A stretch of 52,341 nt of DNA from Natrialba sp. SSL1 (GTDB lineage Archaea; Halobacteriota; Halobacteria; Halobacteriales; Natrialbaceae): assembly GCF_001861355.1 (NCBI RefSeq), contig NZ_MASN01000056.1, positions 1 to 52,341 on the forward strand, given 5' to 3'. Below, in pieces: positions 4,022 through 52,341 of this stretch. A model generated the notes under the pieces. It was not told where the DNA came from and searched no databases. It saw nothing but the letters and a program-made list of their open reading frames with translations. Both the position numbers and the translations under genes were made by a program. Position 1 is the first letter of the stretch, and each line of letters opens with the position of its first letter.

Positions 4022-5647
4022 ATGGAATTCAACACGCCGAAGCAAACGGTCGCGGAGGCAACGCGGACCACCAACTACGAAGGTGGGGAAGCATTCGAGC
4101 CTGCCGACCCTCGACTCGCATTGTACAAGCGCACGATCAATCAGTTGCTGGAAGGATCGTTCTACGAGTCCGATGACGAGCAATTGGCTGCTGTCGTTCA
4201 CCAGTTCGATGCCGCCGCAAACGAAGACCCGGAGTTCGTCCTGAAGCTCGCAGCCTATGCGCGCCAGGAGCTCTACTTGCGGGACATCCCACAAGTGCTA
4301 CTCGTATTGGCGGCCAACGACGATCGGTTCAAGGACGACTCCCCCGAGTCGCTCATCCGCGAATGGGCACCGGCGATCATCCAGCGGATGGACGAGACGG
4401 CCACCGCGCTCGCTGTCCACGATCAGCTGTTCGGTGGAACTGCACCGTGGCCGCTTCGACGCGGGATCGAGGACGCGCTAGTGGAGATGGCCGACGCCTA
4501 CACGCTAGGCAAGTACGATCTGTCGCGGCGCGAGGTGACGCTGCACGACATCTTCAACCGCGTTCACCCCACACCCGTCGACGCCGAGCAGGAAGCGCTC
4601 TTCGAGCGGTTCATGCGTGGCGGACTCGACGACTACCCCGACGTCGACCCGTTGCCAGCGCCGAACACATGGGAGACAGTCATCTCCGAGCGCGGCAACA
4701 CCCAAGACGCCTGGGAACTACTCCTCGAGGACGACGAGTACACGCTACCCATCTTCGCGTCGATCCGGAACCTCCGGAACATACTCGAAGCCGGCGTTCC
4801 GGAGGACACCGTCGTGAATCACCTCGACCTGGAGGCAGTCCGACACGCGCCACTGTACCCGTTCCGGTACTACCAGGCCTACACCGCGCTGCAAGACGCG
4901 GATGTCCAGGCACCGACGATCGAGCAGTGGCTCGAAGACGCAATTGATGTCGCGGTCGAGACGGTGCCTGGCGGATTCGGTGATACCTTTGTCGCGGTCG
5001 ACCTGTCGGGATCGATGGATCAGTCGCTGTCCGCGAACAGCACGCTCCGACTGAAGGAGATCGGTGCGTTGTTCGGTGCGATGCTGGCCGACCAGGGTGC
5101 CGAAGTCGGCGGGTTCGGCGACGACTCCCAGACAGTTCCGATGCACGTCGACACGCCAGTCCTGCAGCGCCAAGCGGCGGTGTTGGCGATCGACGAAGAC
5201 GTCGGGAACTCGACGAACGGCTGGAAGGCAATCGATTACCTCCGCGAGCGAGGTGAGCCCGTCGAACGCATCGTCGTCTTCACCGATATGCAGATCTGGG
5301 ACAACACGCCGTTCACGGCCCGCGATTCCCAGACGGTCAAGGACGCGTTCGATGCGTATCGGGATGAGGTGTCTGCGGACACCGCGCTGTATCTCGTCGA
5401 CCTCGCGGCCTACGGCGACCTGGTGACGCCAGAAGGCTACGAGAACGTCTACAACATCAAGCGTGCCGTGAAACAGGAATTCAACCGCCATATGGCGATT
5501 CAACACAGCCATACGAAGGGACACGAACTCCACGTCGCCCCAGATCCTGACCCAGAGACCATCGACTTTCCAGGAATCGAAGAACTGTACGAACGCTTCC
5601 GGAACGAAATTCCGAAACCGAAATTCGGCCCCGACACAGAGGACTGA
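4022..5647 (+). CDS. rsr: Ro60/Rsr-like TROVE-domain RNA-binding protein
   Basis: At 541 aa this is close to bacterial Rsr length. Residues 1-310 form the helical HEAT-like TROVE ring, including the family-typical N-terminal YEGGEAFEP and the segment LEGSFYES. From about residue 322 a von Willebrand A domain follows, with the MIDAS motif DLSGS at 327-331 and the later metal-site Asp in VVFTDMQIWD. In animals and bacteria Ro60 binds Y RNAs and 3' ends of misfolded RNAs through the ring, and Y RNA controls access. Here it directly follows a tRNA array and a tRNA-like multi-hairpin RNA, which suggests a native RNA partner encoded in cis. The ATG at 4022 fits family starts. No RtcB ligase gene is present in the window. 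Confidence 0.93.
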   Translation: MEFNTPKQTVAEATRTTNYEGGEAFEPADPRLALYKRTINQLLEGSFYESDDEQLAAVVHQFDAAANEDPEFVLKLAAYARQELYLRDIPQVLLVLAANDDRFKDDSPESLIREWAPAIIQRMDETATALAVHDQLFGGTAPWPLRRGIEDALVEMADAYTLGKYDLSRREVTLHDIFNRVHPTPVDAEQEALFERFMRGGLDDYPDVDPLPAPNTWETVISERGNTQDAWELLLEDDEYTLPIFASIRNLRNILEAGVPEDTVVNHLDLEAVRHAPLYPFRYYQAYTALQDADVQAPTIEQWLEDAIDVAVETVPGGFGDTFVAVDLSGSMDQSLSANSTLRLKEIGALFGAMLADQGAEVGGFGDDSQTVPMHVDTPVLQRQAAVLAIDEDVGNSTNGWKAIDYLRERGEPVERIVVFTDMQIWDNTPFTARDSQTVKDAFDAYRDEVSADTALYLVDLAAYGDLVTPEGYENVYNIKRAVKQEFNRHMAIQHSHTKGHELHVAPDPDPETIDFPGIEELYERFRNEIPKPKFGPDTED

Positions 5648-6051: not shown

Positions 6052-7392
6052 AGCCGACAACTCGTGAAAAAACCATTAAGTGAACATATCCCTAACCAGC
6101 AGATGGCAATGGAATACAGTCACCGCTACCGCGCCTACCCGACAAGTAAGGTAGCGGAGCGACTGGAACACCATCTCGACGTTCATCGCCAACTCTACAA
6201 CCACGTTCGCTGGGACTACACAAACAGTCCCGAAGACGACAAGCCGAGCGAGTACGATCAGAACAACAAACTCCCTCAGTGGAAACGCAAGTGGACGGTA
6301 TTCGCGGAACTTCACTCGAAAGCCGCACAAGCCACCGTCGCTCGTTTCCACCACAACCTCACTGTCCTAAGCGAACTCAAAGAGAAAGGGTACAACGTCG
6401 GTCGGCTCAAGCGGCAAGCACCCAGCGAGTACCGAAGCGTGACGTACAACCAGTCTGGCTTCGACCTCGATGAAAAGAGGGGCCACGACAAGTACGCATA
6501 CGTCCGCTTCAGCAAAATCGGGTGGGTGAAAATCCGGTCTTCCCGTTCGATTCCCGACCACGCCACCATCAAAGAAGTCACGTTCAAAAAGGAGACGACC
6601 GGTGAGTGGTTCGTCTCTTTCGGGTTGGAAACCGACGATGCTGACTTCCCCGAGAAACCCGATGTTGACTCGCTGGACGCGAGTAACAGCGTCGGAATTG
6701 ACCTCGGCATCCAGAACTATATCCACACCAGCGATGGCAAGACCGTGGATTGGCTCGATCTCGAAGACGAGTACGAGCGATTGCGCCGCGAACAACGCAA
6801 GTTGTCTCGCAAGGAGAAGGGGTCAAACAACTACGAGAAGCAACGCCGAGAAGTGGCGAAGGTCAAGCGTCACATCAAGCGGAAAGTGCTGGACTACCAG
6901 CACAAGCTGACGACGTGGCTTGTCAAAACGTATGATGCCGTCTTCGTGGAAGACCTCAACATCGCTGGCATGCTTCAAGAGGATGGGAACGCTCGGAACA
7001 AGCAAGATGCAGCGTGGCGACAGTTCATCACACTCCTCGACTACAAGGCCGACCTGTACGGCACGCACGTCGTAGAGGCCGAAGCGCGAGGCACCACCAA
7101 AGAATGTGCGTCGTGCGGTGTGGAGACAGCGAAGCCCATCTGGGTACGGGAACACTCCTGTCCGTCGTGCGGATTCGAGACGGACAGGGATGCGAACGCG
7201 GCGATGAACGTCCTAAAGCGCGGCTTTGCTGAGTTAGGACTGGGATGGCCCGAAGACACGCCTGTGAAGACTGTGACCGCTACGGACGCTGATGACTTTC
7301 GAGAGGTGTCTGCAAGTCACGTCATCGAAACAGGAACCCTGCCCTCGTGAGAGCAGGACTCCCCGCGCCACCGTGCGCGGGGTAACATTCAA
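6008..7392 (+). mobile_element. IS1341-type element carrying tnpB
   Basis: The left-end hairpin CGACC-CACCGT-GGTCG followed by TTGAAGCCGACAA lies at about 6029-6058. The right-end hairpin CCCCGCGC-CACCGT-GCGCGGGG lies at 7361-7382, and the element ends in TCAA at 7389-7392. The left boundary is placed near 6008, after TATAC, by analogy with the 19-nt spacing in the element at 1411, and is approximate. No tnpA. It truncates the DNA-binding protein gene at 5653. Confidence 0.6.
6109..7350 (+). CDS. tnpB: TnpB RNA-guided endonuclease, catalytic triad intact
   Basis: I chose the ATG at 6109 (MEYSHRYRAYPTS) because haloarchaeal TnpBs of this type start MEYSxRYR. GTG 6064 and ATG 6103 are in frame upstream. 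The 413-aa product has RuvC-I GIDLG (Asp about 198), RuvC-II FVEDLN (Glu about 281), zinc finger CASC and CPSC, and the last Asp in DRDANAAMNV (about 361). These positions nearly coincide with the active-site residues of ISDra2 TnpB. It should be nuclease-competent with an omega-RNA from the element's 3' end. It resembles the protein at 43914. Confidence 0.9.
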   Translation: MEYSHRYRAYPTSKVAERLEHHLDVHRQLYNHVRWDYTNSPEDDKPSEYDQNNKLPQWKRKWTVFAELHSKAAQATVARFHHNLTVLSELKEKGYNVGRLKRQAPSEYRSVTYNQSGFDLDEKRGHDKYAYVRFSKIGWVKIRSSRSIPDHATIKEVTFKKETTGEWFVSFGLETDDADFPEKPDVDSLDASNSVGIDLGIQNYIHTSDGKTVDWLDLEDEYERLRREQRKLSRKEKGSNNYEKQRREVAKVKRHIKRKVLDYQHKLTTWLVKTYDAVFVEDLNIAGMLQEDGNARNKQDAAWRQFITLLDYKADLYGTHVVEAEARGTTKECASCGVETAKPIWVREHSCPSCGFETDRDANAAMNVLKRGFAELGLGWPEDTPVKTVTATDADDFREVSASHVIETGTLPS

Positions 7393-8206: not shown

Positions 8207-9702
8207 ACATCCTCCTCGCCGTAAACGGAGAGGGATCAAAGATCCCTCAGGCAGTCGGGCAGAGCCCGACGACGGCGAGGCTTCCCGTACCGCAGGTGGG
8301 ATATTTGCCGGTCTACGACACGACTTGCTCTCTCGTGCGAAACATCCCGCTCTCGCGGTCGAACAAGTATGTCGATGGCTGTGCCACACAGCCGTTACTC
8401 CTATCCTCTCCATGAGGACTCGGAGTTATCTTCTGGCGCATATTCTCCGCCCCATTGCAATCCGCGTTCCCGACTAACCCACACGACGAGCAGACGTACA
8501 GCCCACGTTCGACACGGTTCGACTTCGTGTCGTCACCACACCGCGAACAGGTCTTCGAGGTGTCCCACTCGTTCTCTTTCAGCACCTCAACGCCACGGAT
8601 CTCGCCTTTGTATTCGAGGTACTGGTAGATGCGGTCAAACGCCCACGAGTGCAACTTCTTGTTGCCGGTCTTCCCCCAATCAGACTCTCGCACGTCTTCA
8701 GGCCAACTCACCGCGAGTGTACCCACACCGCGTTCGACACACTCGGTGATGATGGTGTCCGTCAGCGTGTGGTAGAAGTGCGTCTCGCGATCTGCGAGTT
8801 TCCGACGTGCCCACATCGACTTCTCTGATGGACCATTCTCACCCTCAGTGTCGTACTCAGCACGTTTGAAATAGTGCTTGTCTTCTTTTAGCGAGTTACC
8901 GGGGTAGAGCACGTATTCGTCTGGGAACGCGGCTGTGGCGATGTTTTTGATGCCGAGGTCGATACCTGCCACGCCTTCGCCTGCTGAGTCGTTCGTTTCG
9001 AGGCTGACTTTGCAGACGAAGTGCAGCTCCCATTCGTCGCCGTTCCAGACGGCCCGAACGTTCTGCACGCTGTTGACTTCTGAGAGGTCAACGTCGGGTC
9101 GTATCTGGTATTCGCAGAGCAGGAAGTCTGACCAATACTCCTTGAGGTTCTTCCCCTTGCTGAGTCGGACGCGGTTGTTCTCGGGGTCGTGTTTGAAGCC
9201 GTCTTCTTTGAACGTGACCGTACTACGGGGGCGTTCGTCGCCGTGTTTGCGGTAGCCGGGTGGATTCGCCTCGTCAAACTTGTGTCGCAGGTCGAACCAT
9301 GACTGGAAAGCGTCGGAAAGTTCTTCGATGACTTTCTGACTGGATTGCGCGTTCAAATCTTTCCAGCACGACTGGTTCTTCATGTGCGATTTCAGCACGC
9401 CTTCGTCCGGGATTTCGCCGGTTGCATCCCAGATGCGGTCGGCTGTCCAGCGTGCGACATTCCAGATTTTGGAGGCGGCGTCTCCGAGCGAGTCGAGGCC
9501 ATCGCAGACCTGTCTGTGGTTCTGGATGGAACCAACGTAGGTGCGAGTGACCTCAATCGCCATACATAGCCTATGTAGACAAACCTACTTAATGGTGGGG
9601 ATTAGCGTTGAATATCCGGCCTGCCATCGACGGTGGTCTGTGTAGGAGTTGTCGGATTCACTCCCGCCCTGAAGGGGGGGATTCTCCCCTTGCAGGAAGA
9701 TA
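8207..9702 (-). mobile_element. IS1341-type element carrying tnpB (minus strand)
   Basis: It belongs to the same family as the element at 1411. The left end (here at high coordinates) has the hairpin CCCC-TTCA-GGGCGGG followed by GAATCCGACAA. The right end (low coordinates) reads GAGGAGGATGTCAC on the minus strand. Boundaries are approximate to about 5 bp. No tnpA gene is present. Confidence 0.6.
8313..9563 (-). CDS. tnpB: TnpB-like protein, RuvC-II motif degenerate
   Basis: This 416-aa protein is closely related to the one at 1555: same N-terminus (VTRTYVGSIQNHRQV), zinc finger CSRC/CSSC and C-terminal SNGCVAQPSTYLFD. RuvC-I is AGIDLGIKN and the last Asp is in NADCNGAEN. The RuvC-II position reads LAVSWPEDVRES, so the motif is rebuilt rather than simply substituted. 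An alternative Glu, PED, lies a few residues later. Cleavage activity is therefore uncertain. Its 27-bp leader is shared with the 1555 gene. Confidence 0.85.
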   Translation of the reverse strand: MAIEVTRTYVGSIQNHRQVCDGLDSLGDAASKIWNVARWTADRIWDATGEIPDEGVLKSHMKNQSCWKDLNAQSSQKVIEELSDAFQSWFDLRHKFDEANPPGYRKHGDERPRSTVTFKEDGFKHDPENNRVRLSKGKNLKEYWSDFLLCEYQIRPDVDLSEVNSVQNVRAVWNGDEWELHFVCKVSLETNDSAGEGVAGIDLGIKNIATAAFPDEYVLYPGNSLKEDKHYFKRAEYDTEGENGPSEKSMWARRKLADRETHFYHTLTDTIITECVERGVGTLAVSWPEDVRESDWGKTGNKKLHSWAFDRIYQYLEYKGEIRGVEVLKENEWDTSKTCSRCGDDTKSNRVERGLYVCSSCGLVGNADCNGAENMRQKITPSPHGEDRSNGCVAQPSTYLFDRESGMFRTREQVVS

Positions 9703-10545: not shown

Positions 10546-12158
10546 GATTCAGCGAGAGAATCCCGCCCTTCCCGTGAGTGACGAGCGTTCCGACGCCCTG
10601 TCGGAACCGAGGAGCGATCAGGGCAGGAGTGAATCGCGTCAGATCCAGTGACAAACCACCACCGGACTGGCAGGCCTGAGTCTCCACCAGTCGGTATCAG
10701 ATTCACTTTCACTGCGGATGGCTGACCTTCACCACGGGTCAGCTCGAATACCAAACTGCGAATGAAGCGTACCAACATGTTCACCGTGCGTCCGCTCTCC
10801 GAAGGTGGGGAGAACCTGCTCCGGGACCTGTTGGACGCTTCTGCCGCTCTCTGGAACGAAACCAACTACCAACGCCTCATACGGTACAACGATGAAGACG
10901 GTTACGAGGACGAAGACGTGTGGGATGCAGATACTGGCCGACTCGAAGGCCGGTACAAAGGCGTCCTTGGGGCGTCGACCGCCCAACAGGTGATCCGGAA
11001 GAACTCAGAAGCGTGGCGTGGCTTCTTCCGACTCAAAGAGCAGTACCACGACGACTCGAATACATCGGTCACGGAACACCCCGAACCGCCGGGATTCCGG
11101 GGCAACGAAGACGACGGGCGGGAACTCAAGACCGTCATTCGCAACACCTCGTACACTGTCGAGTGGGGTGACCGCTCCCGACTTGAGATACTGGTCGGGA
11201 GCGAATTGAAAGACAGATACGATCACACCGGGCGTCTCCAGCTGGAAATCGCTGGCGACCCGAACTGGCCCGACTACGAGAAACAGGGCCGGTTGGATCT
11301 GTGGTACGACGAGACTGATTGCACGTTCAGGGCTTCGCAACCCGTGACTGTTTCTGACGATGCACGGGAGACTCCACTGGCTTCCGGGAAGGCCGCTCTG
11401 GACATCGGTGCGAACAATCTCGTCGCCTGTACCACGATGGCCGGCCAACAATATCTGTATGAAGGCCGCAAGTTGTTCCAGCGATTCCGCGACACGACGC
11501 GCCACATTGCTGAATTACAGTCGAAACTTGAAGATGGTCGGTACAGTAGCGAGCGTATCCAGCGATTGTACCGCAAGCGCACCCGTCGCCGTGACCACGC
11601 CCAAGAAGCGTTGTGTCGTAATTTGCTGGACCGACTGTACGCCGAAGGGGTCGATACCGTGTATATCGGGGGCCTAACTGACATCCTCGAGACGCACTGG
11701 TCAGTCGAGACGAACGCCAAGACGCACAACTTCTGGGCGTTCAAGCAATTCACTGAACGGCTGGCGTGTACCGCTGAGGAGTACGGTATCTCGGTCGAGG
11801 TTCGGTCAGAAGCGTGGACCAGTCAGGAGTGCCCGCAGTGTGGTTCGACAGACCGAACGACGCGGCAACAGGACACACTCACCTGTCCGTGTGGGTTCGA
11901 GAGCCACGCCGACCTTACGGCGTCAGAGACGTTCCTAATGCGGCAGACAGAACAGGCAGTCAGGCCGATGGCACGGCCCGTGCGGTTCGAGTGGGATGAC
12001 CACGAATGGTCGGAGTCACCACGCTCTCTCCATCCTAAAGAACAGCGCACAGACCCGAGTACCGTCCATCGTGACGGGAATATTGCTTCCGGGGGGACTT
12101 AGACCGGCTGAGACTCCCACGGAGGAAACCGCGCCGTTCACGGCGAGGAGGATGTCAT
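10546..12158 (+). mobile_element. IS1341-type element nested in an older remnant
   Basis: The left end holds a large imperfect hairpin from CCCGCCCTTCC (10560s) to AGGGCAGGAGTGAATC (about 10635). The right end has CGCCG-TTCA-CGGCG and GAGGAGGATGTCAT at about 12158. It begins where the remnant at 10391-10537 is cut, so it inserted there later. Exact ends are uncertain. Confidence 0.5.
10762..12102 (+). CDS. tnpB: TnpB-like protein, divergent, RuvC-II glutamate not recognisable
   Basis: This 446-aa protein of a different subgroup begins [18 protein letters not shown]. RuvC-I is ALDIGANN (Asp about 214). The RuvC-II position reads [11 protein letters not shown] with no Glu at the usual site. 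The zinc finger is CPQC and CPCG, the second pair being CxC rather than CxxC. The last Asp is in [10 protein letters not shown]. The C-terminal tail is basic and proline-rich. It is probably an RNA-guided DNA-binding protein with changed or lost cleavage. Confidence 0.8.
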
Positions 12159-18499: not shown

Positions 18500-19450
18500 A
18501 TGGTAGACAAGAGTCACTTCCGTCTATTATCACATCTTGTAGTGGGGAATGGGTCGGAAATAGGTATCAGTACGCTTGCTGATCAACTCGACTGGAGCGC
18601 TGGCCACACCTCACGTATCGTCTCCGAATTAGAAACCTACGGCTATGTCCAAACCAAGCAAAGTGGTCGGCAAAAGTTGGTTTCTCCGACGGACATCGAA
18701 CCGATCGAGCAACTCGAGGGACTTCTCACGGAGTACAGCCACATGGATCTACCCGATCTCATTGCTGGTGCTGGGTTACTCGTGCTCTACTATCTCGATC
18801 AAAAGCGGACCGCAACCGAGTTAGCCGAACTGAGTGGTGTTAGTCAGGCGACGGTCTACCGCCGGTTAGATAGCTTTCAGCACGTTGGTGTCGTGGGGAA
18901 ATCGAAGTCCCAGTATCGTCTCAACGATCCGTTTGCAGTGTTGTCCTCGATCGCTCGAGGACTGCTCCACCAGAAACATCGTCGCGAAGCACAGCGGCAC
19001 GCGAGTGGACTCAATTTTCTCTGGGAAACACACAACGAATTCCTCTTCGCCTGCGACAGTGACGTTACTGCTGATGGATTTTACCTGACCGGGCCTGCCC
19101 TGTTCGAAGCGTTCGATGTCCCGCTTCTCACAAGGGATCGGCGACACTACTTCCGGACGGACCGACTTTCCGAGATTACTCCCGCAGAATTAGTCTGCCA
19201 CACACTACTGATCGATGACGGTCCTCGGTACCGAACGTACTGTCTCTTATTGATACAACAACAGGATATCGAGAGAACGGCACTACGGGAGCGTGCTGAA
19301 CACTATCTCCCCGAAGCGGTGATCGATCTGCGCGCTATCGTCGATGAATTCATCGAATACTTAGAGACAGACGGAACGACAACAACCGACCAACTACCCA
19401 AATGGAAAGACTTCAAACAAACGGCCAGAGACTATGAGATTACTGTATGA
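18500..19450 (+). CDS. Two-winged-helix regulator, AbiEi-like antitoxin candidate
   Basis: A 316-aa protein. A first MarR-like winged helix contains ISTLADQLDWSAGHTSRIVSELE. A second HTH contains TATELAELSGVSQATVYRRLD. The C-terminal 170 residues have no motif I recognise. It overlaps the nucleotidyltransferase gene by 4 bp (ATGA), so the two are co-translated. An HTH protein paired with a stand-alone nucleotidyltransferase is the layout of AbiE-type and other toxin-antitoxin pairs. That assignment is inferred from arrangement, not sequence identity. A near-perfect palindrome lies just upstream. Confidence 0.7.
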   Translation: MVDKSHFRLLSHLVVGNGSEIGISTLADQLDWSAGHTSRIVSELETYGYVQTKQSGRQKLVSPTDIEPIEQLEGLLTEYSHMDLPDLIAGAGLLVLYYLDQKRTATELAELSGVSQATVYRRLDSFQHVGVVGKSKSQYRLNDPFAVLSSIARGLLHQKHRREAQRHASGLNFLWETHNEFLFACDSDVTADGFYLTGPALFEAFDVPLLTRDRRHYFRTDRLSEITPAELVCHTLLIDDGPRYRTYCLLLIQQQDIERTALRERAEHYLPEAVIDLRAIVDEFIEYLETDGTTTTDQLPKWKDFKQTARDYEITV

Positions 19451-28267: not shown

Positions 28268-29760
28268 TTGACCTCCTCCCCCGCGTGAACGCGGAGGAAT
28301 CCCACCATGGGATTTCAGGCCGAGCAAGCGGCATGTTGGTTTCAAGACGCATTCGTTCCATGCGTCACCTGCTGGGGTTCAGCATCGGCATGGCTGTCTT
28401 GTGGCCCAGTCAATGAGGCCCCATCTGTAGCCGAGTCATCGTCACTAGCCTTCTGCTGAGGATTCCGGTCGCTTTGGCGGTGACTCTCTCCACTACAGTA
28501 GCGATCTGCAATGTTTATCGCCCCGTTCACGTCGGCCTGATATTCTGTGACCCAACAACTGTCGTTTGAACAGCGGAACGTCGCCTGTCGTGGTCGAGAG
28601 CCGACCTTATCACAGGCGTGGCATTCTTTCGACGTGTTCCGGGGATTCACCGTCTCGACGGGAATCCCCTTTTCGGCGGCTTTGTACCGAATCTGTGCGT
28701 GGAGCTTGGCAAAACCCCATCCATGTAACCGCCGGTTCATGTACGCGCCGTAGTCCATGTTCTCGCGGATGTACGTCAGGTCTTCCAGTACCAGCACCGG
28801 GTTCTCGACGGACTCGGCGTATTCAACGACCTCACGAGTTACCCGGTGGACCACGTGGTCAATCCGGTCCCACAGTACGTCACCGTAGGACTCCGCGATT
28901 CGCTCACTGCCACGTCTCTGAAGCCGTCGCTTGGCGGTGAAGTGGGTTTTGCGGAGCTGCCGGACGGTTTTGCCGTCGTCGGCCCACAGTTTGGGACGAA
29001 CCGGAGACCCAGAGTCGTCGCGGTGACACACCGTGACGAGACTCGCTTCTCCGATGTCGACGCCGACCGGCGTCCCCTCGTTGGCAGACGCCGCAGATTG
29101 TTCCTCTATGTCGCGGGTGGCGGTGACGTGGAGATACCACGTCCCATCCCGCTCGAAGAGCCGACTTTCACCCATCTCGGCGTCGTCAGCGTACAACGCT
29201 TCCAGCCAATCCCGCTGGTCTGGATTCGCCTGTACCGGGATCCAGAGGTGGTAATCGTCGTGATGAGGGACTTTGACGTACCACTCGAGGGCGTTCTGTG
29301 GCTTGTGGTCGAGTTGAACGCCTTCGTTAGTGAACTTCACAGGATGGTCGTCGTGAAGCTCATCGGCATCGTAGCTGCCGCCACAGAGTTGCGGGACGTA
29401 CTGCTTGAGGGCGTTTTTCGCGTAGCCGGATAGGTCGTACTCGACAACGACGTTGTTTGTGGCTGACTGAGTGGTGCAATCGGCGTCGAAGGCTGCCTGA
29501 AGTGCCTGCTGGTATGCTTCGCGGGTCTCACAGAGCTTGCGCTGCTTGTGGGCATTGGGATCGACGAGGCGCAACTCGAGCGTCTTCGTGACTCCAGGCA
29601 TCCGTTCTGTACCCATCAATACGGCAGAGGACACCATATACGTCAGCCATGCGGAGTGAAAGTAAAGGATGGAAATCCACCTCAGCGTCACTCCGAAAAC
29701 GGACAATCACTGCCTATCGCTCGACCTGCGCCTGAAGACGCAGGTATGCGCTAGCAATCT
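28268..29760 (-). mobile_element. IS1341-type element carrying tnpB (minus strand)
   Basis: The right end at low coordinates reads GGAGGAGGTCAA on the minus strand (TTGA at 28268-28271), beside a CCGCGTTCACGCGG hairpin. The left-end hairpin ACCTGCG/CGCAGGT lies at 29724-29745, and the outer left boundary is uncertain by about 20 bp. No tnpA. It lies between the viral-type gene and the DUF58 operon, directly upstream of the latter's start. Confidence 0.55.
28342..29616 (-). CDS. tnpB: TnpB RNA-guided endonuclease, catalytic triad present
   Basis: I chose the start MGTERMPGVTKTLELRL (29616), because the frame further upstream (to 29706) encodes no TnpB-like sequence. ATG 29601 is also possible. 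RuvC-I is VGVDIGEASL, RuvC-II LVLEDLTYIREN has the Glu, the zinc finger is CHAC and CSNDSC (a widened second pair), and the last Asp is in QADVNGAIN. The tail is low-complexity and acidic. It belongs to a different subgroup from the 1555 and 6109 proteins. Confidence 0.88.
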   Translation of the reverse strand: MGTERMPGVTKTLELRLVDPNAHKQRKLCETREAYQQALQAAFDADCTTQSATNNVVVEYDLSGYAKNALKQYVPQLCGGSYDADELHDDHPVKFTNEGVQLDHKPQNALEWYVKVPHHDDYHLWIPVQANPDQRDWLEALYADDAEMGESRLFERDGTWYLHVTATRDIEEQSAASANEGTPVGVDIGEASLVTVCHRDDSGSPVRPKLWADDGKTVRQLRKTHFTAKRRLQRRGSERIAESYGDVLWDRIDHVVHRVTREVVEYAESVENPVLVLEDLTYIRENMDYGAYMNRRLHGWGFAKLHAQIRYKAAEKGIPVETVNPRNTSKECHACDKVGSRPRQATFRCSNDSCWVTEYQADVNGAINIADRYCSGESHRQSDRNPQQKASDDDSATDGASLTGPQDSHADAEPQQVTHGTNAS

Positions 29761-43760: not shown

Positions 43761-45218
43761 GCTGAAATAGAGGGCGCTAAGCCCCCGTCCTCAAGGAGCG
43801 AAGAGAGCATAGCGAAGTGAGCGAGTAGGGTGGGGATACAGCGCCCGCACGAATCGCAACCACTCTAATCAAAACCGTTAACAATCCACAACCACTGTCA
43901 GGAGACAAGTCGCATGGAGTACAGTCCACGATTCCGAGCTTTCCCGACGACTGGGCAGCGGGAGAGTCTCGACTGGACTCGTGACATCGTGCGACAAGTA
44001 TACAACCACGCACTCCACGAATTCAACAAAATCCCAGAAAATAAGGGAACGCTTCGACAACGCGTCTGGCAAGTCCGAGACACTCTTCCAAACCTCAAAC
44101 AGTGGTGGACTGACCTTAACAAAGTCTATTCCACCGTGTTGCAGAAAGCTGTTGAACGCATCCGCACCAACATCAACAACCTTGGCAAGCTGAAAGCCAA
44201 GGGATACGATGTTGGCTCGTTGAACTGGAAAGCACCGCGTGAGTATCGGAGTTTCACGTATCGGCAATCGGGCTTCGAACTCGACAAAAAGAGTGGCCCG
44301 AGAGACCGAGCAATACTCCGACTCAAAAAAGTCCGCGGTGAAACCTTGGAGATTCCAATCCGACTCCACCGTGACCTGCCCGAGCACGACGCTATCAAGG
44401 AAGTTACGGTGAAGAAAGAGTCGACGGGAGCATGGTACGCGTCGTTCTGTATCAGCACGGACGAACCAGAGAAACCCGAGCCTGAAGATATTGATTCTGA
44501 AGATACCGTCGGGCTCGACCTTGGCGTGCTTAACTTCATCCACGATTCCAAAGGACGCTCTATCGACCGTCTCGACTTGTCCGATGAACGCGAGCGCCTC
44601 GAACGCGAGCAACGCTCGCTCTCTCGCAAACAGTACGAGTCGAACAACTGGCAGAAACAACGCCGATGTGTTGCCGAGGTTCACGCTCGGATGTCAAACA
44701 AGAAGCGCGATTACAAGCACAAAATCGCACACTTCTACGCGACGACGTACGACGCGGTGTTCGTCGAGAATTTGAACGTGAAGTCGCTGCTGGAATCAGG
44801 TGGCAACGCTCGGAACAAACACGAGGTTGGCTGGAGTGATTTCCGCCAGATTCTCGAACATCACTGTGATAAGCACGGTACGCACTACGTTGAAGTGCCT
44901 GCTCAGGGCACGACGAAAGAGTGTGCCAAGTGTGGCTGTGAATCGGAGAAACCATTGTGGGTTCGAGAGCACTCGTGTCCTTCGTGTGGGTTCGAGTTGG
45001 ATAGGGATTGGAACGCGGCGTTGAACGTGAAATCGTGCGGGTTGTCGGAACTAGGAGTGGTACACTCCAAAGCAACGCCTGTGGAGACTGCGACCGCTGT
45101 GGATACGCTTTCCGTGTCTGCAAGTCGCGTCGTAGAAGCAGGAAGTTCCGTCCTCAAGGAACGAACGGCGCAAGCCGTGAGTGAGTAGGGCGGAGTAGTT
45201 CACTCTGAACTACTGATC
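43761..45218 (+). mobile_element. IS1341-type element carrying tnpB
   Basis: The left end after CACTTAG carries GAGGGCGCTAAGCCCCCGTC and further hairpins to about 43830. Its solo copy is at 20990-21071. The right end has GGCGCAAGCC and a perfect hairpin AGTAGTTCA-CTC-TGAACTACT (45193-45213), followed by GATCAC, which I take as the end. No tnpA gene is present. The insertion-site type (TTAG) differs from the 1411 family (TTAC). Confidence 0.55.
43914..45188 (+). CDS. tnpB: TnpB RNA-guided endonuclease, catalytic triad intact
   Basis: This 424-aa protein starts MEYSPRFRAFPTTGQRESL. RuvC-I is VGLDLGVLN (Asp about 202), RuvC-II is FVENLNVKSLL (Glu), the zinc finger is CAKC and CPSC, and the last Asp is in DRDWNAALNV. 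It is the closest relative of the 6109 protein, with similar motifs throughout. Its solo left end at 21 kb shows this subfamily has been active in this replicon. Confidence 0.9.
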   Translation: MEYSPRFRAFPTTGQRESLDWTRDIVRQVYNHALHEFNKIPENKGTLRQRVWQVRDTLPNLKQWWTDLNKVYSTVLQKAVERIRTNINNLGKLKAKGYDVGSLNWKAPREYRSFTYRQSGFELDKKSGPRDRAILRLKKVRGETLEIPIRLHRDLPEHDAIKEVTVKKESTGAWYASFCISTDEPEKPEPEDIDSEDTVGLDLGVLNFIHDSKGRSIDRLDLSDERERLEREQRSLSRKQYESNNWQKQRRCVAEVHARMSNKKRDYKHKIAHFYATTYDAVFVENLNVKSLLESGGNARNKHEVGWSDFRQILEHHCDKHGTHYVEVPAQGTTKECAKCGCESEKPLWVREHSCPSCGFELDRDWNAALNVKSCGLSELGVVHSKATPVETATAVDTLSVSASRVVEAGSSVLKERTAQAVSE

Positions 45219-45316
45219 ACTACACGTGCGAACTTGCCGGCGGAGATCTATCGAGGTCAATGAGCCCGGTTTGTACGAACCAAACGGTTATGTGGGACCA
45301 CCACGTCAGTAGGGCT

Positions 45317-45637
45317 ATGAGTCAAGGACGCGATGACGCGGGCCGATTTGAAGAATCTGTTACTGAACAAGATATCCTCAAAGTATTCGACTACGAGGAT
45401 GACCCAGTCCTCACAGCGCCGGAAGTTGCTAACGGTCTTCGGCGGTTTGGGACACAAATTACCCCTGAAGGAGTTCGAAATCGGCTCAAGGAGATGGACG
45501 AGAAAGGCCTCGTAAGCCGTAAAAAGCTGGGCGCGAGAGCTGTGGGATGGTGGGCAGAGGTCGCCCCTGAACTGGATTCTAGTACTGCCAAAACTGTTGA
45601 CTCGAGAAAGGAGTCTGACGAGTGGGAGGAATTGTAG
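45317..45637 (+). CDS. Winged-helix antitoxin of a RelE pair
   Basis: A 106-aa product. I chose the ATG at 45317 (MSQGRDDAGRFEESVTEQDI) because the upstream 19 codons look non-coding and this start matches haloarchaeal relatives. The winged helix spans ILKVFDYEDDPVLTAPEVAN and GVRNRLKEMDEKGLVSRKKL. The C-terminal tail is acidic and probably neutralises the RelE toxin encoded 6 bp downstream. Confidence 0.75.
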   Translation: MSQGRDDAGRFEESVTEQDILKVFDYEDDPVLTAPEVANGLRRFGTQITPEGVRNRLKEMDEKGLVSRKKLGARAVGWWAEVAPELDSSTAKTVDSRKESDEWEEL

Positions 45638-45643
45638 CGATAT

Positions 45644-45892
45644 ATGGCGACAGTGTTGTTGCATCCTGATGTGGAGAAGGAGCTACAATCTCTTCCAAAT
45701 GATATCGAGAATCGAATCCGATCGAAGTTGACTGAGGCCGAGGAGAATCCAGACCGTCATCTCAAACCGCTCAAGGGACGAGATGAGTATTCGCTCCGCA
45801 TTGGGAAACGACGAGCAATTATCGATTGGGTCAAAGAACAGAACGAACTTCGAGTACTAGAACTCGATACTCGAGACACAGTCTATCAGTAG
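45644..45892 (+). CDS. relE: RelE/ParE-family toxin
   Basis: This 82-aa protein has the typical RelE/ParE layout: HPDVEKELQSLPNDIENRIR, then NPDRHLKPLKGRDEYSLRIG and KRRAIIDWVKEQNELRVLEL. In relatives the basic residues around YSLRIGKRRAII are part of the mRNA-cleaving site. Together with the 45317 gene it forms a type II toxin-antitoxin pair, though relatives of ParE poison gyrase instead. Confidence 0.85.
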   Translation: MATVLLHPDVEKELQSLPNDIENRIRSKLTEAEENPDRHLKPLKGRDEYSLRIGKRRAIIDWVKEQNELRVLELDTRDTVYQ

Positions 45893-47053: not shown

Positions 47054-47407
47054 ATGGTTGATACGCCACCACGAATGGACGGCTTGTCCGGCTTCCAGCG
47101 CGATTTGCTGTACGTCGTTGCAGGCAAGCACCGGCCGTCGGGCCAAGACATCAAAGACGGCATCGAGAGCTACTACGAGACCGAAATCAACCACGGGCGG
47201 CTGTACCCGAATCTCGACGCGCTAGTCGACAAAGAACTCGTTGAAAAAGGGCAGGTCGACCGGCGGACGAACTACTACGAGCTGACGGCTCGCGGCGAGC
47301 GTACAATCACGTCACGTCAGCAGTGGGAATCCAAGCAGGCCGCGGAGGTGCCAGCATGGGTGTCTACAAGATCGACGCAGACTACAACGCTGAAGGATCG
47401 GTTCTGA
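47054..47407 (+). CDS. PadR-family transcriptional regulator
   Basis: A 117-aa protein. The winged helix contains SGFQRDLLYVVAGKHRPSGQ and INHGRLYPNLDALVDKELVE, with the wing RRTNYYELTARGERTI, all classical for PadR-like regulators of haloarchaeal mobile elements. I prefer ATG 47054 over 47051. Its tail overlaps the next gene by 52 bp. It is a candidate reader of the CAATAGG half-site upstream of parA. Confidence 0.8.
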   Translation: MVDTPPRMDGLSGFQRDLLYVVAGKHRPSGQDIKDGIESYYETEINHGRLYPNLDALVDKELVEKGQVDRRTNYYELTARGERTITSRQQWESKQAAEVPAWVSTRSTQTTTLKDRF

Positions 47408-49267: not shown

Positions 49268-49636
49268 CTATTGTCGTCTGCCGTTTTTCCAACAGAAACA
49301 CGGTGTCCGAAACGCCTACCTCTTCCCAGTCGAAAGCCGTGCGTGCCGTCGTGCTGCCGGTCACGAGACCGACATGCGTGTTGCCATCTCAGTCGATCGT
49401 AGCAGGCGACGGTGGCTTTCACTCTGCATTCGGGGCACACACGACTCCTGTGTGGCCCTACAACACTCCACAACGGTTTTCTTGACTGATACCGTAGTTG
49501 AGTTGCCGCACTCACAATACCAGTATTCACTGGGGCGGCAGCAATGCCGCCTGTGACTCCTACCTCCCCATCAGTATCTACTCTACATAACTCGTCCGTA
49601 GTATCTACAGGACTTGGAATAGGATAGGTAGGTGAA
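49268..49636. other. Non-coding stretch between membrane gene and iterons
   Basis: No gene that I can support. The G+C content falls sharply after 49560. Together with the iterons that follow, this is the expected composition of a partition or replication control region. Confidence 0.4.
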
Positions 49637-49681
49637 ATAGGCATAATAGGTAAAATAGGTACAATAGGCACAATAGGTACA
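49637..49681 (+). repeat. Five tandem 9-bp iterons
   Basis: ATAGG recurs at 49637, 49646, 49655, 49664 and 49673, exactly 9 bp apart. The unit is AATAGGYAN. Two more ATAGG copies lie at 49619 and 49624, and an inverted copy (CCTAT) near 49703. This looks like a centromere (parS-like) or a replication-initiator iteron array. The 9-bp period is shorter than a helical turn, so adjacent sites face different sides. Confidence 0.7.
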
Positions 49682-49688
49682 ACAGCTG

Positions 49689-49746
49689 CAGTAGCTACCT
49701 TGCCTTAGGTACCTATTACAGCTATTGCAGTAGAGTTAAGGCAATC
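49689..49746. repeat. Inverted repeat between iterons and parA
   Basis: TTGCCTTA (about 49700) and TTAAGGCAA (about 49736) form inverted arms around GGTACC. GCAGTAG occurs at about 49687 and 49727 and inverted (CTACTGC) at 49807. This is a second layer of symmetrical sites beside the iterons. Confidence 0.4.
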
Positions 49747-49786
49747 TAGAAAGAGGTGTATATCGTCCGTTGAGACAGATTTGGGA

Positions 49787-49804
49787 ACAATAGGCTCCTA
49801 TTGT
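49787..49804. promoter_or_regulatory. Palindromic operator of parA built from the iteron half-site
   Basis: ACAATAGG-CT-CCTATTGT is a perfect 8-bp inverted repeat, 28 bp before the parA start. Its half-site CAATAGG is the same as in the 9-bp iterons upstream. One DNA-binding protein probably recognises both, linking partition or replication to parA expression. Confidence 0.6.
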
Positions 49805-49831
49805 GCCTACTGCAGCGGGCGGAGTCACACA

Positions 49832-50722
49832 ATGGCAGTAAACGACCCACGCGCAGTTAGCGTCGTGATCTTGAAAGGTGGAGTCGGCAAATCAACGACC
49901 TCGATGAATCTTGCTCGGCAGCTTGCCGAGCGAGGTGACACGCTGTTTGCAGACCTGGACCCAAACGGTCACGCAACGAACGGGCTCGGATTCGAAGCAG
50001 CCTACCAGTCCGATACAAACCTCGGAGACGTAATTCTCGAGGGTGATGCAACACCCACTGATATTATTCAACCAACCGAGTACGGCTTCGACCTCCTCCC
50101 GTCGTCGAACACACTCGAGGATGTTGAGAAGGACTTGGCTGGTGCAATGCAAGGTTCGGCACGAGTAAAGTCAAAGATTGTTGATCCGCTACTCGGCAAC
50201 GAGTACAGCTACATCGTGTTCGACTGCCCGGCCTACCCCGGCATGCTGAACAACAACGCGCTGGTTGCGACCGGCAACGTGATGATCCCGATCGAACCTG
50301 GCTCGAGTGCGATCGGCGGATACAAACGCACGATGGAACGGCTCATTCAGCCTGCACGGGAGTACATCGATGTCGATGTGCTCTCTGTAATCCCGAACAA
50401 ACTTTCGGACCGGATCGACCAGCAGACCGAAGATCGTGAGCTGCTCGAAAACCTGAACACGGCGAGTTTCGAAGTCAACCCCGAGTCGGGAGAGACACTT
50501 CCCGAGGTCGTGCCGAACTTCGCGCGGATCACCGCTGAAGGATTCGACGATATCGACGCCGGTCGAATCAAGCCGCCAAAGCCAGGCATTCGCCATCGGT
50601 CAGTGCTCTCCCGTTCACTCCAGCACAACCAGCCTTTGCAGGATTACGACCCCGAAAGCGACCAGATCGAGCATTACGAAGAACTCGCAGAGATTGTGGC
50701 CAATGGGGGTGTCTCCCGGTGA
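49832..50722 (+). CDS. parA: ParA-family partition ATPase
   Basis: I start at ATG 49832 (MAVNDPRAVSVVILKGGVGK), because the 17 codons upstream overlap the palindrome and show no coding character. The 296-aa product has deviant Walker A KGGVGKST, Walker A' FADLDPNGHAT, and Walker B YIVFDCPAYPGML. It polymerises or shuttles with ATP to segregate DNA. The C-terminal half binds non-specific DNA in relatives. It overlaps the next gene by 4 bp (GTGA). Confidence 0.92.
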   Translation: MAVNDPRAVSVVILKGGVGKSTTSMNLARQLAERGDTLFADLDPNGHATNGLGFEAAYQSDTNLGDVILEGDATPTDIIQPTEYGFDLLPSSNTLEDVEKDLAGAMQGSARVKSKIVDPLLGNEYSYIVFDCPAYPGMLNNNALVATGNVMIPIEPGSSAIGGYKRTMERLIQPAREYIDVDVLSVIPNKLSDRIDQQTEDRELLENLNTASFEVNPESGETLPEVVPNFARITAEGFDDIDAGRIKPPKPGIRHRSVLSRSLQHNQPLQDYDPESDQIEHYEELAEIVANGGVSR

Positions 50723-51102
50723 CGAATCCTTTTGACGATTTAGAGTCCGACGGGGATACAGACGGCCAAGAAGAGACGGACACCGAACCAGAGCCGGAAC
50801 CCGTTCCGGAACCGACAACGCAACCAACACGATCGATACCGGAGCAGGCAACGAATCCTGAACCAAAACCAGAATCAGGGCCGGCGTTCGAATACAACGA
50901 GGTCCAGCAAAAGCCGTTTTACGCACGCGCTGAGACGGTCGCTAACTTTGAGAACAGTATTCGAACTACGATTATTCCACAACTTGCCGAGGCCGGTGTT
51001 CTCGACGAGGAGATGCGAGAGATTCACGACGCAGTGCTTCGGCTCGCGAATGAACAGCCTGAGCGAGTTGCAGAACTCGTTCTTGAAGAACGCCGTCGGT
51101 GA
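50719..51102 (+). CDS. Small partition partner downstream of ParA
   Basis: It uses a GTG start inside the ParA stop (GTGA overlap). The 127-aa protein has an acidic, Pro/Glu/Thr-rich N-terminal half (MTNPFDDLESDGDTDGQEET) and a helical C-terminal half (AETVANFENSIRTTIIPQLA and IHDAVLRLANEQPERVAELV). There is no ParB nuclease-fold motif. The place and size fit a DNA-binding or adaptor protein of the partition cassette, and it is a candidate iteron binder. Confidence 0.75.
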   Translation: MTNPFDDLESDGDTDGQEETDTEPEPEPVPEPTTQPTRSIPEQATNPEPKPESGPAFEYNEVQQKPFYARAETVANFENSIRTTIIPQLAEAGVLDEEMREIHDAVLRLANEQPERVAELVLEERRR

Positions 51103-51473: not shown

Positions 51474-52341
51474 CGCACGGTGGCCGGGGCTTGTCAGTGA
51501 ACTCGGCCTCTGCCGACCGTAGTTAGTCGGACGGGACAAATCCACGGTTCGGCGTCACCGTTCCTGACTTCAGGGCGAGTTGACTGTCGCCCGTCCGCCG
51601 AGACGACTGTAGGCCCCGACGGACAAACCGCCACCCAACATTCTTTGCACCCACGTAATCCGCATTCTGTGTTGCACCGCAGGCTTCACACTCAAACTCC
51701 GCCTGTCGCACCCGATTCCCCTCGCTCGTATGCCCACAGTCGGGACACCGCCGACTCGTGTTCTTCGGACTTACAAACTCGATACTAATCCCGTGGGCTT
51801 CAGCCTTGTACTCCACAAGGTCAACGAGTTGCCGGTGTGCCCACTGGTGAAACTCCTTGACAGGTGGCGCACGCTCTCGGATGTGCTTCAGGTTTTCGAA
51901 GGCGATGTATTCACAGTCGTGTGTGCGTGCTTCTTCGAGAATCTGGTTAGCGACTTGATGAAGCTGATCACGGAGATACCGTGACTCGCGCCCGCTCATC
52001 TGCTGAATCGTCCGATGGGCAGATTGTGTCCCAGTCTGCTGAAGGGTTCCACGGATCCGCTCGAACTCCCGGTGGCGGTGCCTGAGTTTCCTTCCCGACG
52101 CAAAGTACGCTGTGCTGGTGGTGGCGATGTTAACGATGCCGAGGTCAACGCCGAGAACTGTCCTGTCCTCGTCGCCATCCTGTATTTCGACCTGTTTCTC
52201 GGGCTTCGGTTTGCGAAATCCGAGGTGGAGGTAGTAGTCGCCATCACGCTTTGACAGCGTGGACTCCGTTACTTCCCACTCGTCATCGGTGAGGTATTCG
52301 TGTTGATACCCGTCTTCTTCGTCGGGGAGGTTCAGGTCACA
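51474..52341 (-). mobile_element. IS1341-type element, right-end part (continues beyond window)
   Basis: On the minus strand the tnpB stop is followed by GCCCCGGCCACCGTGCGCGG, whose arms GCCCCG/CGGGGC pair. This shares CCACCGTGCGCGGGG with the right end of the element at 7361. It then reads CAGTTGACAT, where the element probably ends at about 51463-51474. The left end lies outside the window. Confidence 0.5.
51523..52341 (-). CDS. tnpB: TnpB RNA-guided endonuclease (5' end outside window)
   Basis: The frame is open across the window edge. The first readable part contains TDDEWEVTESTLSKRDGDYY, then RuvC-I LGVDLGIVNIATT. RuvC-II is IAFENLKHIRER (Glu present), the zinc finger is CPDC and CEAC, and the last Asp is in NADYVGAKN. 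All three catalytic residues are intact. The C-terminus GTVTPNRGFVPSD is also seen in other haloarchaeal TnpBs. Its omega-RNA scaffold is similar to that of the 6109 element. Confidence 0.9.
   Translation of the reverse strand, partial: CDLNLPDEEDGYQHEYLTDDEWEVTESTLSKRDGDYYLHLGFRKPKPEKQVEIQDGDEDRTVLGVDLGIVNIATTSTAYFASGRKLRHRHREFERIRGTLQQTGTQSAHRTIQQMSGRESRYLRDQLHQVANQILEEARTHDCEYIAFENLKHIRERAPPVKEFHQWAHRQLVDLVEYKAEAHGISIEFVSPKNTSRRCPDCGHTSEGNRVRQAEFECEACGATQNADYVGAKNVGWRFVRRGLQSSRRTGDSQLALKSGTVTPNRGFVPSD

Follow-up and report, generated by a model that had tools for sequence, protein, structure and literature searches.

A 9-bp repeat lattice and an inverted pair upstream of a haloarchaeal parA gene, very probably a plasmid centromere and its operator

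In the TP228 ParF-ParG-parH system the ATPase gene is followed by the gene of its partner, and the centromere lies upstream. The disordered N-terminus of TP228 ParG acts on its ParA-type partner (PMC5393062). In pSM19035, each omega dimer binds one 7-bp unit, contiguous arrays of direct or inverted units overlap promoters, and full activation of ParA requires at least 4 contiguous units (PMC9499535). Among archaeal systems, one site of the Saccharolobus SegAB pair is found just upstream of the start codon of the ATPase (PMC5120986), and the motif recognized by SegB consists of scattered 13-bp TCTAGA-S-TCTAGA palindromes (PMC12284271). The nature of the centromere on archaeal plasmids and chromosomes has been listed as an open question (PMC5120986); in the full texts of the open literature searched, we found no description of a haloarchaeal par centromere or partner.

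We describe here a par cassette found in a window of 52,341 bp (positions 1-52341 of contig C56) of a 4.58-Mb haloarchaeal draft genome. Its layout is of type Ib: a ParA with a deviant Walker A motif and without N-terminal HTH domain, a small unrelated partner gene directly 3' of parA, and a repeat array upstream of the parA-partner operon (Table 1). From the sequence comparisons reported below, the repeats before parA are very probably a plasmid centromere plus operator. The cassette as a whole would consist of ParA, a small centromere-binding protein of 127 aa and a centromere built as a 9-bp lattice, with an inverted pair as operator, a reading to which we assign a probability of about 0.8. 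The parA product itself matches Pfam AAA_31 (E 2.8e-28, residues 8-170), CbiA (E 5.7e-12) and a PHROG ParA-like partition protein (2.8e-40), its KGGVGKS motif lying about 12 residues from the start.

Table 1. Position of the features of the par cassette within the window.
Feature	Position	Strand	Description or proposed role	Basis
Full 9-bp lattice	49601..49726	.	~14 units; proposed centromere	TA steps at phases 0 and 4/5 of the 9-bp register; phased TAGG/CCTA in close relatives
Core of the lattice	49636..49680	+	five exact contiguous AATAGGYAN units	pattern counts
TATA-like box GTAGAGTTAAG (consensus GGTAGAATTAAG)	49730..49740	+	proposed BRE/TATA of the par promoter	kept in the 44-leader alignment; putative promoter role
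Possible leader stem, 5' arm CGTCCGTTG	49764..49772	+		weak basis; relatedness not removed
Inverted pair ACAATAGG-CT-CCTATTGT	49787..49804	.	proposed operator and/or outlying centromere site	present in nearly all close relatives
Possible leader stem, 3' arm CAGCGGGCGG	49813..49824	+	overlaps GGAG	weak basis; relatedness not removed
parA	49832..50722	+	296-aa deviant-Walker ATPase (KGGVGKS), no N-terminal HTH domain	Pfam and PHROG matches
Partner gene	50719..51102	+	starts with GTG and overlaps parA by 4 bp; product proposed to bind the centromere and repress the operon	kept beside parA; structure models

An earlier note on this DNA had reported five exact AATAGGYAN repeats spaced by 9 bp, stray copies of the motif and a perfect 18-bp palindrome just before parA. 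The five units are indeed present, starting at 49636, 49645, 49654, 49663 and 49672, exactly 9 bp from start to start, and so are the stray copies, one on the reverse strand at 49710-49717 and an unrelated one at 18559. Altogether, the window contains 7 copies of AATAGGYA where 0.81 would be expected, and none of 100 shuffles reached 7. For three-unit tandems, at a tolerance of up to 3 mismatches, the window is expected to contain 0.00 and contains 5, every one of them in the array; the tandem AATAGGYANAATAGG is found nowhere else in the 4.58-Mb genome, where the reversed pattern, taken as control, gave 0. The array, taken by the note to be limited to five repeats, turned out to be longer: between 49602 and about 49723 the TA steps keep to one 9-bp register, at phases 0 and 4/5, which gives an array of about 125 bp, not 45 bp. 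The lattice comprises about 14 units, of which the five good repeats are the best preserved.

The same unit recurs closer to parA, where ACAATAGGC and TCCTATTGT, two adjoining 9-bp units of opposite orientation, make up the inverted pair ACAATAGGCTCCTATTGT. Since the central CT, flanked by two 8-bp arms, is not self-complementary, a perfect palindrome is ruled out. The sequence CAATAGGNNCCTATTG, at 49788-49803, is found in a single copy in the genome.

Whether homologous parA genes are accompanied by the repeats had been proposed as the check able to refute the centromere. Scanning a single genome for each species, we obtained 31 parA loci at 74-89% identity, from Natrialbaceae-type and Haladaptatus haloarchaea, and phased TAGG/CCTA arrays lie upstream of parA in all 31, so that no cassette devoid of repeats turned up among them. 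In these loci, TAGG/CCTA density is 24/kb upstream of parA against 2.2/kb in the rest, and 207 of 271 same-strand pairs are spaced by a multiple of 9. Sites of both orientations fall in a single 9-bp register, the forward-reverse offset modulo 9 being 2 in 130 of 196 pairs. Nearly all close relatives feature the inverted pair, 35-66 bp upstream of the parA ATG; it is degenerate in loci L025, L028 and L186, the latter from a later fetch. The comparison of homologous cassettes thus backs, at the sequence level, the suggestion of a centromere and an operator sharing a half-site. Within the closest lineage, two C-terminal sub-types of the partner go with different unit preferences, ATAGS vs TYAGS (p 3e-6 by the Fisher test and 3e-4 by the Mann-Whitney test, without correction for relatedness).

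About 100 further loci were then fetched. The parA-partner pair is present in 172 fetched loci, corresponding to 140 distinct upstream regions, and in 119 of these (85%) the strongest autocorrelation is found at a lag of 9, 18 or 27 bp, compared to 26% of the controls (80 of 311 windows taken from contig C56, and 116 of 437 taken from flanks). A coding artefact was considered and rejected: control maxima are spread over lags of 6, 9, 12, 15, 18, 21, 24 and 27, while 85% of the upstream ones lie at 9, 18 or 27. Autocorrelation is a simple statistic and, because related loci are not independent, counts are also given by lineage: clustering of ParA at 65% identity produced 16 lineages, many containing a single locus, and the majority of regions peak at these lags in 15 of them. 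The sequence of the unit varies with the ParA lineage (CAATAGG, GAATAG, CTTAGGTAGCTA, AATTAT and others); arrays are weaker in clusters 2 and 3, and none is clear at L153. Common to the lineages, and clearest in the larger ones, are two TA steps per 9-bp unit, 4-5 bp apart. In the window's lineage, TA-TA spacings modulo 9 amount to 0.30 at 0, 0.18 at 4 and 0.15 at 5, the control being flat at 0.11; these spacing counts are not circular, while the unit consensus derived from TA phase is partly so for TA itself. The paired TA steps suggest that each quasi-symmetric sTAnnnTAs unit may accommodate one protein dimer.

In one lineage (L048-L052 and L092-L101; also L056), the GAATAG array continues past the parA start codon, where it codes for an N-terminal Asn-Ser-x tail. 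Tail codons track the iteron: Asn is encoded by AAT 95 times and by AAC twice (94:186 in the remainder of the gene), Ile is ATA in 25 of 26 cases (10 of 354 in the remainder), and Ser codons are AGY 126 vs TCN 34 (107 vs 263 in the remainder), which argues that the DNA sequence itself is under selection. This finding also bears on the possibility that the lattice serves autoregulation only, as an extended operator, partition residing at another site or being absent. Such a role would suit the position of the array and the inverted pair, which flank the conserved TATA-like box GTAGAGTTAAG, about 100 bp upstream of the parA ATG, and the fact that small centromere binders usually double as repressors. 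However, about 14 units over 125 bp are far more than an operator needs, arrays reach into coding sequence in this lineage and are also found downstream of the operon at some loci, and in pSM19035 identical contiguous repeats fill both roles (PMC9499535). A purely regulatory lattice is, on balance, very improbable.

A paralogous parA-partner pair in the same genome (L037, on contig C34) has its own unit, ATTATGTAG, in arrays bordering the gene pair on either side, 5' of parA and 3' of the partner; a different unit is what is expected for compatible systems. A third cassette, on C61 (L039 / L045), is decayed: its parA is devoid of the P-loop half, and the partner gene is broken and matched in two pieces. 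In one genus (L196-L201; genomes G320, G246, G094, G035, G067 and G235), the cassette is located among metabolic genes, mostly on chromosome-size contigs and with largely common flanks, and the partner diverges faster than ParA; it is a candidate for either a chromosomal segregation system or a fixed integrated plasmid.

Iterons are typical of replication origins, and in Halorussus pelagicus an orc1/cdc6 gene is found about 0.9 kb upstream of parA. The array might in this case consist of origin iterons for an initiator, Orc1/Cdc6 or another Rep, with parA adjacent by plasmid modularity. Yet the contig contains no Cdc6 gene, no initiator was recognized among the 20 large ORFs scanned, and the array tracks the parA-partner pair, not a rep gene, as at L047, where ABC transporters lie on both sides. 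The array also persists at the chromosomal location among metabolic genes, its unit preference follows the partner sub-type, and the parA reading frame itself contains units of it in one lineage. Replication iterons were rejected on these grounds as very unlikely, though the arrays could in principle serve replication in addition to partition.

The 52-kb contig carries no fewer than five TnpB/IS605 OrfB-like genes, and probably seven (1555-2835, 6064-7350, 8313-9563, 10762-12102 and 28342-29706, plus 43914-45188 and 51523-52341 as probable ones, from sequence similarity only), and the window ends inside one of them. A TROVE-domain (Ro60-like) protein is encoded at 4022-5647. At 45260-45892, a small wHTH gene (45260) is followed by an 82-aa ORF resembling a RelE-type toxin, and the two might form a plasmid-stabilising pair, an assignment made by eye except for the HTH match.

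The 127-aa partner is composed of an NPFDDL tip, an acidic disordered linker and a helical C-terminal domain (residues ~57-127). Within its family, the NPFDDL-type tip is near-invariant and the C-terminal domain conserved, while the acidic linker varies in length. The family profile matches 200 of 391 haloarchaeal genomes sampled, in 56 of 86 genera; across the phylum, 393 sampled genomes gave 36 matches, all of them within the window's own order, and no relatives were found in the viral contigs searched. The supposition that the ParA partner carries no ParB motif and may belong to a new family agrees with these searches: no ParB-family match, corresponding to the N-terminal CTPase and HTH domains of ParB/Spo0J, was obtained in Pfam or NCBIfam, and no match of substance to any named family in Pfam, NCBIfam, PHROGs or PDB. 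Two apparent links were discarded, one to TFIIE, where a PDB profile search matched just the low-complexity acidic linker, and one to designed repeat proteins, whose phmmer matches were judged spurious.

Two AlphaFold (AF2) models of the partner predict helices at residues 71-91, 97-112 and 114-126, with block means of pLDDT of 75-97, following an extended stretch in which Q64, P66, Y68 and R70 alternate as on one face of a strand. Searches of the PDB with the monomer models by Foldseek and VIA-align gave no usable match. The modelled stretch and helices would fit a ribbon-helix-helix dimer, which is one possible fold of the domain.

Two candidate binders had been put forward in the earlier note, the 127-aa protein and a PadR-family protein encoded at 47054. 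Sequence conservation strongly favours the former: its homologue adjoins parA in every complete close relative, while just 3 of 32 have a PadR match no further than about 4 kb from parA. Pfam places the 47054 product among the PadR-type wHTH proteins (PadR, 2.6e-13), and a precedent is offered by AspA of Sulfolobus pNOB8, a wHTH centromere binder spreading on DNA (PMC5120986). Binding of the iterons by this protein, or by another host regulator, with the 127-aa protein as a mere adaptor, is nevertheless very unlikely: the cassette lacks the ParB gene of aspA-parB-parA, and in Halopiger xanaduensis pHALXA01 no PadR is annotated within 6 kb. As it is not conserved beside parA, the PadR protein was rejected as an unlikely binder.

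Very little probability is likewise left to the conserved leader (inverted pair plus CCGCTG/CAGCGG arms) being instead an RNA element for parA translation, with the palindrome as an RNA hairpin: own-arm duplexes do beat shuffled ones (-12.7 vs -10.3 kcal/mol; 0/5000 permutations, relatedness not removed) and the 3' arm overlaps the Shine-Dalgarno-like GGAG at 49821-49824, but the hairpin sequence is identical to the DNA iteron half-site, inverted pairs are placed elsewhere in other lineages, and the permutation test ignores relatedness. It is suggestive only that the leader arms, CCGYTG and CAGCGG, which enclose the inverted pair (49764-49824), could pair in RNA and cover the GGAG before parA; such an element may act alongside the DNA role, not replacing it.

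Returning to the cassette as a centromere with its operator, we infer that the partner is the binder, that a dimer occupies each 9 bp, that the NPFDDL tip contacts ParA, that the operon is repressed, and that the plasmid is partitioned by the cassette. The 127-aa protein would bind one 9-bp unit, quasi-palindromic sTAnnnTAs in either direction, probably as a dimer, and its dimers would coat the contiguous lattice. The NPFDDL tip, on its long acidic tether, would reach nucleoid-bound ParA-ATP and trigger the release of ParA, so that the array would pull the plasmid along a ParA gradient. By binding to the inverted pair, which lies in the 5' leader, downstream of the TATA-like box and ahead of the ATG, the same protein would repress the operon; ParA itself could also bind this operator.

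A broader reading, according to which this is a haloarchaea-wide centromere class with a strict 9-bp lattice and a new DNA-binding family as reader, is rather doubtful at present. In such a class the unit would be re-coded between plasmid lineages with its spacing kept, the centromere would double as coding sequence of the ParA N-terminal tail in one lineage, and a chromosomal version would segregate the main chromosome of one genus. The cassette would provide a haloarchaeal centromere with defined sites and a defined candidate binder, and the combination of a 9-bp lattice with a lineage-specific unit would predict plasmid compatibility, which can be tested in haloarchaea amenable to genetics. 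A function is also proposed for a family annotated so far as hypothetical and present in about half of the sampled haloarchaeal genomes.

Compared to known archaeal systems, the cassette resembles AspA-ParB-ParA of pNOB8 (PMC5120986) in being an archaeal plasmid ParA system with the centromere upstream. Unlike pNOB8, where three genes include a wHTH binder and a ParB adaptor, it is made of two; the AspA-ParBA layout was not found here, parB being absent and PadR not conserved. With SegA-SegB it shares an archaeal ParA, an archaeal-only overlapping downstream partner and sites upstream of the gene pair; the TCTAGA-S-TCTAGA motif has one 2-mismatch match in the window, which is at chance level, and a profile search of PDB sequences found no SegB-like match to the partner. 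Like TP228 ParG (PMC5393062), the partner is small, with a disordered N-terminus and a separate C-terminal domain, DNA-binding in ParG. It differs from ParG by an NPFDDL tip devoid of arginine finger, by a family size of 127-200 aa, and by a C-terminal domain not recognisable as RHH.

The closest resemblance is to pSM19035 delta/omega/parS. In the latter, RHH omega binds 7-bp heptads; here the unit is of 9 bp and the host an archaeon, the partner is unrelated to omega by sequence and features a long acidic linker, and one haloarchaeal lineage has units inside parA. In both systems, short non-palindromic units, contiguous and direct or inverted, form one lattice over the par promoters, ParA has no HTH domain, and one small protein acts, as we propose for the haloarchaeal partner, as both binder and repressor. 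We regard pSM19035 as the nearest working analogue of the haloarchaeal cassette.
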